IMG/VR virus record: IMGVR_UViG_3300027140_000022
Coordinates: 1-24,478 of that record
Source: a virus
Length of the DNA: 24,478 nucleotides
Direction: 5' to 3' (one strand)
Below the pieces are notes generated by a model that saw only the letters and a program-made list of their open reading frames with translations, had not been told where the DNA came from and did not search any database. Positions 15,179 to 15,358 of this stretch are shown piece by piece. The position numbers were made by a program, and so were the translations under genes. The stretch's first letter is position 1, and each line of letters starts with the position of its first letter.

Positions 15179-15215
15179 TTGGCACAGCCTATGCTGGGAG
15201 CAGGAACCATGCCAG
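15179..15215. repeat. 37-bp dyad element A
   Basis: TTGGCA arm, TGCTGGGAGCA core, TGCCAG arm, with variable linkers. It lies 30 bp left of element 17. Each half fits sigma54 -24/-12 spacing. Confidence 0.7.
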
Positions 15216-15232
15216 AGCAGGAAACGTGCCAA
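15216..15232 (-). promoter_or_regulatory. TTGGCA-N8-TGCT half-site
   Basis: Minus strand TTGGCACGTTTCCTGCT, in tandem with the right half of dyad A. It is a good match to the sigma54 pattern TGGCAC-N5-TTGCW except at one position. Confidence 0.5.
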
Positions 15233-15245
15233 CCTATCGGAAACG

Positions 15246-15284
15246 ATAGTTTTCGGAAATGGAGACCCCAAATCGGAAAACTAT
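15246..15284 (-). repeat. 39-bp element, copy 17 (right end of array)
   Basis: Core GGAGACCCC on the plus strand. Read in reverse it has the canonical GGGG start (GGGGTCTCC), so this end copy may be inverted like copy 1. It lies between divergent genes. Confidence 0.9.
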
Positions 15285-15297
15285 GCTTTGCACGGAC

Positions 15298-15334
15298 TTG
15301 GCATAGAACCTGCTGGGAGCAAGAAGTGTGCCAA
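15298..15334. repeat. 37-bp dyad element B
   Basis: Same core TGCTGGGAGCA and TTGGCA/TGCCAA arms as dyad A, with different linkers. It lies 13 bp right of element 17. Confidence 0.7.
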
Positions 15335-15341
15335 GTGTGAC

Positions 15342-15358
15342 TTGGCATGAAACTTGCT
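15342..15358 (+). promoter_or_regulatory. sigma54-like site upstream of 15445
   Basis: TTGGCATGAAACTTGCT has GG and GC at the -24/-12 spacing and points at the 15445 gene, about 87 nt away. A role as promoter is unproven. Confidence 0.4.

Follow-up and report, generated by a model that had tools for sequence, protein, structure and literature searches.

Promoters that depend on sigma54 (RpoN) are recognized through a -24/-12 element with the consensus TTGGCACG-N4-TTGCW. Repeated sites of another kind, the stoperators, occur in cluster A mycobacteriophages; to our knowledge they differ in sequence from the half-sites treated in this work and do not form alternating dyads. The stoperators are many sites dispersed over the phage genome, and a monomeric repressor is reported to read such an asymmetric site with two domains (PMC9283540). 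For T4-type phages, PeSL has been described, a mobile regulatory cassette in which an early promoter is combined with a stem-loop (Arbiol 2010, Comeau 2014, as cited in PMC4503421). Here, we analyze arrays of a two-box site that resembles the sigma54 element in sequence, the cluster A operators in being an asymmetric site present in many copies, and PeSL in neither promoter nor stem-loop.

The array and its surroundings

The stretch of DNA studied, in the following called the window, is the IMG/VR record IMGVR_UViG_3300027140_000022 taken whole (24,478 bases) and belongs to a tailed phage. Its tRNAs are followed by a region of cassettes, which contains seventeen 39-bp dyads (ATAGTTT-N8-GGGnnnCCC-N8-AAACTAT, 3761-15284), and then by PhoH, a sigma70-like protein, an ERCC4 nuclease and the terminase, the closest named counterpart of which is that of Microcystis phage MaeS (about 24% identity). 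The relative G010 (48.9 kb) is near-identical to the window (99.8% over the 11 kb compared). All phage records used are fragments, in which genes were called as plain open reading frames. One of these in the window, 7386-8216, looks by eye only like a histone-deacetylase-type protein.

Between the divergent paralogous genes A and B, and upstream of both, lies an array of 17-bp half-sites of the form TTGGCA-N7-TGCT, the two boxes of which are about one helical turn apart (Table 1). An earlier note on this DNA had described two 37-bp dyads and four additional half-sites, and all of them were recovered, the minus-strand half-site of dyad A with a single mismatch (T to C at arm position 1). The spacing given there needs correction: GG-N10-GC holds, while TTGGCA-N8-TGCT does not, as the true linker has seven bases and allowing one mismatch does not bring up the N8 form anywhere in the window. 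Seven exact half-sites are present in the window, whereas 200 dinucleotide shuffles yielded 0.07 on average and never more than 1. The single half-sites just right of elements 14 and 15 reside within a duplicated 116-bp block (13170-13285 and 13744-13859, 79% identical); they are therefore not independent and were counted once. The search for further copies in the rest of the genome ended negatively, in that G010 holds all seven exact half-sites in one region and none outside it.

Table 1. Features of the array region and its neighborhood in the window.
Feature	Position	Strand	Remarks
Single half-site	13174-13190	-	7 bp right of 39-bp element 14, pointing toward the element
Single half-site	13748-13764	-	5 bp right of 39-bp element 15, pointing toward the element
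39-bp element 16	14201-14239	.	Other boundary of the inverted segment
Gene A	14631-15050	-	140 aa; array on its 5' side
37-bp dyad A	15179-15215	.	TTGGCACAGCCTATGCTGGGAGCAGGAACCATGCCAG; convergent half-sites 15179-15195 (+) and 15199-15215 (-)
Half-site	15216-15232	-	TTGGCACGTTTCCTGCT; 13 bp left of 39-bp element 17, pointing away
39-bp element 17	15246-15284	.	Array center; boundary of the cassette inverted in L011, L025 and L034
37-bp dyad B	15298-15334	.	TTGGCATAGAACCTGCTGGGAGCAAGAAGTGTGCCAA; convergent half-sites 15298-15314 (+), 13 bp right of element 17, and 15318-15334 (-)
Half-site	15342-15358	+	TTGGCATGAAACTTGCT; points to gene B
Gene B	15445-15867	+	141 aa, GTG start; paralogue of A
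EndoVII-like HNH nuclease gene	16290-16805		Lies about 0.9 kb off the array in almost every relative of the window lineage

In relatives, the flanking gene family has 45 members, and 41 of these have half-sites at most 300 bp upstream. An AlphaFold2 model of the gene B product (mean pLDDT 84.6) has a mixed beta fold for which the PDB yielded no convincing match; its three viral sequence matches are all uncharacterised, no named phage relatives were found for it, and neither of the two flanking proteins contains a recognisable helix-turn-helix. Both had been considered as the protein that binds the array, and they may still be candidates for it. The EndoVII/HNH nuclease family comprises 29 members in three groups, 27 of which are encoded within 1.5 kb of a half-site, a proximity that may be simple synteny.

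In groups 1, 2 and 9, outward sigma70-like promoters (at least 10/12) were found at 11 of 32 array edges, with the -35 box 25-69 bp from the array, and inward ones at none. Group 0 shows three outward versus ten inward matches at this threshold, so that an outward promoter was dropped as a general rule.

Sequence and arrangement of the half-sites

A logo was derived from 391 sites located near another half-site, with TTGGCA alone imposed. It reads TTGGCA[C/T][G/A]R-N3-T-TGC[T/a], the frequencies after TTGGCA being C56/T42, G69/A29, R, N, W, Y, T51, T, G, C and T89/A7. The half-site thus has a -24 GG and a -12 GC with 10 nt between them in a TTGGCACG-N4-TTGCW context, and it shares the boxes as well as the secondary preferences of the sigma54 element (C over T, G over A, R, T, T over A); all informative positions agree, including T over A at the last base. 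The consensus used in this comparison was set against mapped sigma54 sites of E. coli (PMC4591121). The boxes are also retained during evolution, as the note had demanded for its GG and GC positions: in the orthologous slots R1 and R2 the ten box positions diverge by 0.00-0.01 and the seven linker positions by 0.31-0.42, that is box variation of 0-1% as opposed to 31-42% in the linkers.

Half-sites alternate in orientation, yet they are also found singly or as direct repeats. The distance between half-site starts is mostly 20-21 bp in convergent pairs and mostly 24 or 22 bp in divergent ones; the search patterns favored some pair spacings, and neighbors that had not been imposed show the same ones. 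Upstream of the flanking gene family, 81 half-sites are in sense and 81 in antisense orientation, and the gene-proximal one is antisense in 24 of 35 cases, so the directional bias of a set of promoters is not seen. The 11 nt after TGCT, the stretch that would have to melt in a sigma54 promoter, contain 59.5% G+C versus 50.7% upstream, a value obtained from sequence only for 151 sites without convergent partner and with related phages pooled. Many of the half-sites counted share descent, because they stem from related phages, and are not independent.

Within a pair, the linkers are less complementary to each other than shuffled linkers, and a C at position 7 of one half is commonly met by a T in the other half (44 of 70 and 51 of 81 pairs). 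It seems that selection acts against self-pairing while the boxes are kept.

Register with the 39-bp elements

The dyads had been proposed to form a second family constructed by the logic of the 39-bp elements, and this view is supported. It also holds that the half-sites stand in fixed relation to these elements: those pointing away do so across a gap of 13 bp in 23 cases, which all represent one orthologous array although its two sides agree, and those pointing toward an element have a gap of 5 bp in eight cases and of 7 bp in one. On the other hand, half-sites are missing within 60 bp of 64 of the 88 distinct 39-bp elements.

The 39-bp elements mark the borders of cassettes, and in relatives inversion and shuffling have taken place at them. 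In three relatives (Table 1) the DNA between elements 16 and 17 is inverted, the breakpoints being at the elements. Of 121 alignment ends across relatives, 41 fall within 6 bp of a 39-bp element, 7.3% being expected; the corresponding p-value of 2e-17 is too optimistic, because alignment ends are not independent. In the inverted relatives the left array travels with gene A and the right array remains with gene B, which means that the arrays belong to the cassettes and not to element 17. The description of the dyads as bracketing this element is thus right as to position, but there is in fact one array per flanking cassette.

Distribution in viruses and genomes

The exact 37-bp dyad was found in 40 IMG/VR stretches, whereas an N8-spaced control, with the inner boxes shifted by one base, and a scrambled-box control had no matches in IMG/VR. 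The exact dyad, here with Y also required at position 7, did not occur in bacterial and archaeal genomes totaling 257 Gb. Divergent, back-to-back pairs are present in 64 viral stretches versus eight in genomes. Some of these eight are hairpin-like and some are located between divergent genes (Clostridium, Hyphomicrobiales), as true divergent sigma54 promoters would be; a single one lies near an open reading frame with an RpoN-box-like peptide. The dyads of L012, L013, L033 and L041 lie inside large open reading frames and were set aside as coding matches, as was L031, the sequence of which is identical to L012, giving five excluded loci overall.

Grouped by shared proteins, the fetched loci fall into 14 groups with few or no proteins in common; as the records are fragmentary, there may be fewer lineages than this but not more. 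Among the terminases of array-bearing phages that were searched, at least two unrelated kinds are represented. A WhiB gene is a marker of actinophages; it was absent from 36 records, and actinophage hosts were rejected on this ground. Tyrosine or serine recombinases (PF00589, PF00239) were encoded in none of 27 fragment records. Neither a sigma54 gene nor a sigma54 DNA-binding domain was detected in 36 partial phage records, an RpoN-box-like peptide was not found in the phage fragments, and matches to the sigma54 activator family were confined to two of the 36 records, one of them above the cut-off. On the basis of these fragments, a phage-encoded sigma54 was discarded.

In the lineage of L060 and L071 a 57-bp palindrome, GGGGCCCC-N41-GGGGCCCC, contains a GTAAGTC/GACTTAC dyad. 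L060 has ten full copies, most with TTGGCA half-sites alongside, and its cassettes are duplicated; this palindrome plays the role of the 39-bp elements in another phage lineage. No named phage relatives were found for the L060 array. Three further loci have features of their own. At L008:6265-8420, long poly-C/poly-G tracts directly adjoin half-site pairs, and sigma70-like promoters point inward over hairpin and array, so that a short RNA is possible. At L029:600-860 the array is enclosed by an 18-bp inverted repeat, TTATAACGCCACCGCGCA ... TGCGCGGTGGCGTTATAA. A 49.8-kb contig of a Hydrogenedentota MAG (L125) ends in 56-bp tandem repeats with alternating TTGGCA half-sites, and this end is possibly a viral or plasmid piece.

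Discussion

Taken on its sequence features, the array would be a cooperative protein-binding site, either an operator or an upstream site, for a putative two-contact DNA-binding protein and not a promoter, a reading to which we assign about an even chance (probability roughly 0.5). Each 17-bp half-site (TTGGCAYR-N4-T-TGCT) would offer two recognition boxes to one protein, encoded by phage or host, that might touch the DNA through two modules or carry a DNA-binding domain like that of sigma54. Neighboring half-sites would be bound cooperatively, and the occupied array may control the adjacent, mostly divergent transcription units, possibly jointly with a protein that binds the 39-bp dyad. Retention of the boxes while the linkers drift, the preferred spacings, the balanced orientation and the register to the 39-bp element were all counted in favor of such an array, as were the restriction of the correctly spaced dyad to viruses, the low complementarity of the linkers, the position upstream of the flanking gene family and the outward promoters of groups 1, 2 and 9. 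Against it were counted the failure of outward promoters to appear generally and the common descent of many sites. The match to the sigma54 consensus would then be a coincidence unless the binder is related to sigma54.

Many copies of one asymmetric two-part site, mostly intergenic, are what is found in an operator array, and the stoperators of cluster A phages (PMC9283540) are alike in being numerous and dispersed over a phage genome, their repressor providing a precedent for the reading of one asymmetric site by two domains that is proposed for the half-sites. They differ in that other phages are concerned and in that no repressor gene was found for the arrays. With PeSL (as cited in PMC4503421), it is the 39-bp elements that have something in common, namely repeated intergenic palindromes at places where small genes shuffle between relatives. 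The TTGGCA arrays are unlike PeSL: they have no promoter joined to a stem-loop, as sigma70-like matches of at least 9/12 are absent from window positions 14950-15500 and complementarity of the linkers is avoided.

The main rival, suggested by the close match to the consensus and by the occurrence of the motif in unrelated phages, is binding of the half-sites by host sigma54 or its holoenzyme. The sites could then serve as bidirectional promoters of an unconventional kind, as a roadblock or insulator that separates transcription units, or as a decoy by which sigma54 is titrated from the host. We consider such binding doubtful. The agreement of the unforced logo down to T over A at the last base speaks for it, recurrence in phages with unrelated terminases would fit a conserved host factor, and some bacterial divergent-pair matches are situated between divergent genes, one near the RpoN-box reading frame. 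Nevertheless, the arrays are not a set of ordinary sigma54 promoters as far as can be judged from the DNA: in contrast to such promoters, the half-sites form alternating inverted arrays of preferred spacing, are virus-specific as dyads, have no directional bias toward genes and are followed by G+C-rich DNA after the -12 box. The earlier claim of sigma54-like half-sites accordingly survives at positions that had not been imposed, while a function as sigma54 promoters is not supported by the orientation, by the G+C content or by the phage fragments, in which no sigma54 gene was found. Moreover, the footprint of RNA polymerase implies that alternating, overlapping sites would not be occupied together, the conserved tight spacing suggests protein-protein contacts between neighbors, the bacterial and archaeal genomes searched are devoid of the exact dyad, the partial phage records offer no sigma54 and hardly any activator match, and the phage hosts might lack sigma54. 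A study that looked for sigma54 roadblocks within E. coli genes saw none (PMC4591121); by analogy, this weakens the roadblock reading for the phage arrays. It is a rather unlikely further option that unrelated phages carry consensus host sigma54 sites in an arrangement adverse to promoter use, which would capture sigma54 or the closed holoenzyme and serve as DNA sponge or insulator; if true, such arrays exploit a polymerase unable to start by itself.

Slightly less credit still is given to the half-sites as accessory parts of a cassette-exchange site that has the 39-bp dyad, or the 57-bp palindrome in the L060 lineage, as its core, with the array helping recombination. The breakpoints at 39-bp elements, the fixed register and the half-sites flanking the 57-bp palindrome are in line with this idea, but several of the 39-bp elements without a half-site nearby are still cassette boundaries, each array keeps to its own gene upon inversion, recombinase genes were not encountered in the 27 fragment records, and homologous recombination between the repeats would be explanation enough. 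RNA or DNA hairpins, such as terminators or elements of the attC or REP type, are by far the least probable. On paper, alternating inverted repeats are able to pair, and G+C-rich palindromes adjoin half-sites in some lineages; pairing of the linkers below the level of shuffles argues against hairpins, and so do the C/T preference at position 7, the invariant boxes without covariation and the half-sites that occur singly or as direct repeats.

Since the half-site arrays are shared by many different uncultured phages, they are probably a widespread, previously undescribed phage control element. Phages with at least two unrelated kinds of terminase, and up to 14 contig groups, have retained a 17-bp two-box site that matches the sigma54 consensus, yet its dyad did not occur in 257 Gb of bacterial and archaeal DNA. 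This would mean either that host sigma54 is used by phages time and again in a hitherto undescribed way, or that a widespread regulator of phages has evolved independently to recognize the target of sigma54. The array motif furthermore provides a handle by which uncultured phages can be grouped and annotated.
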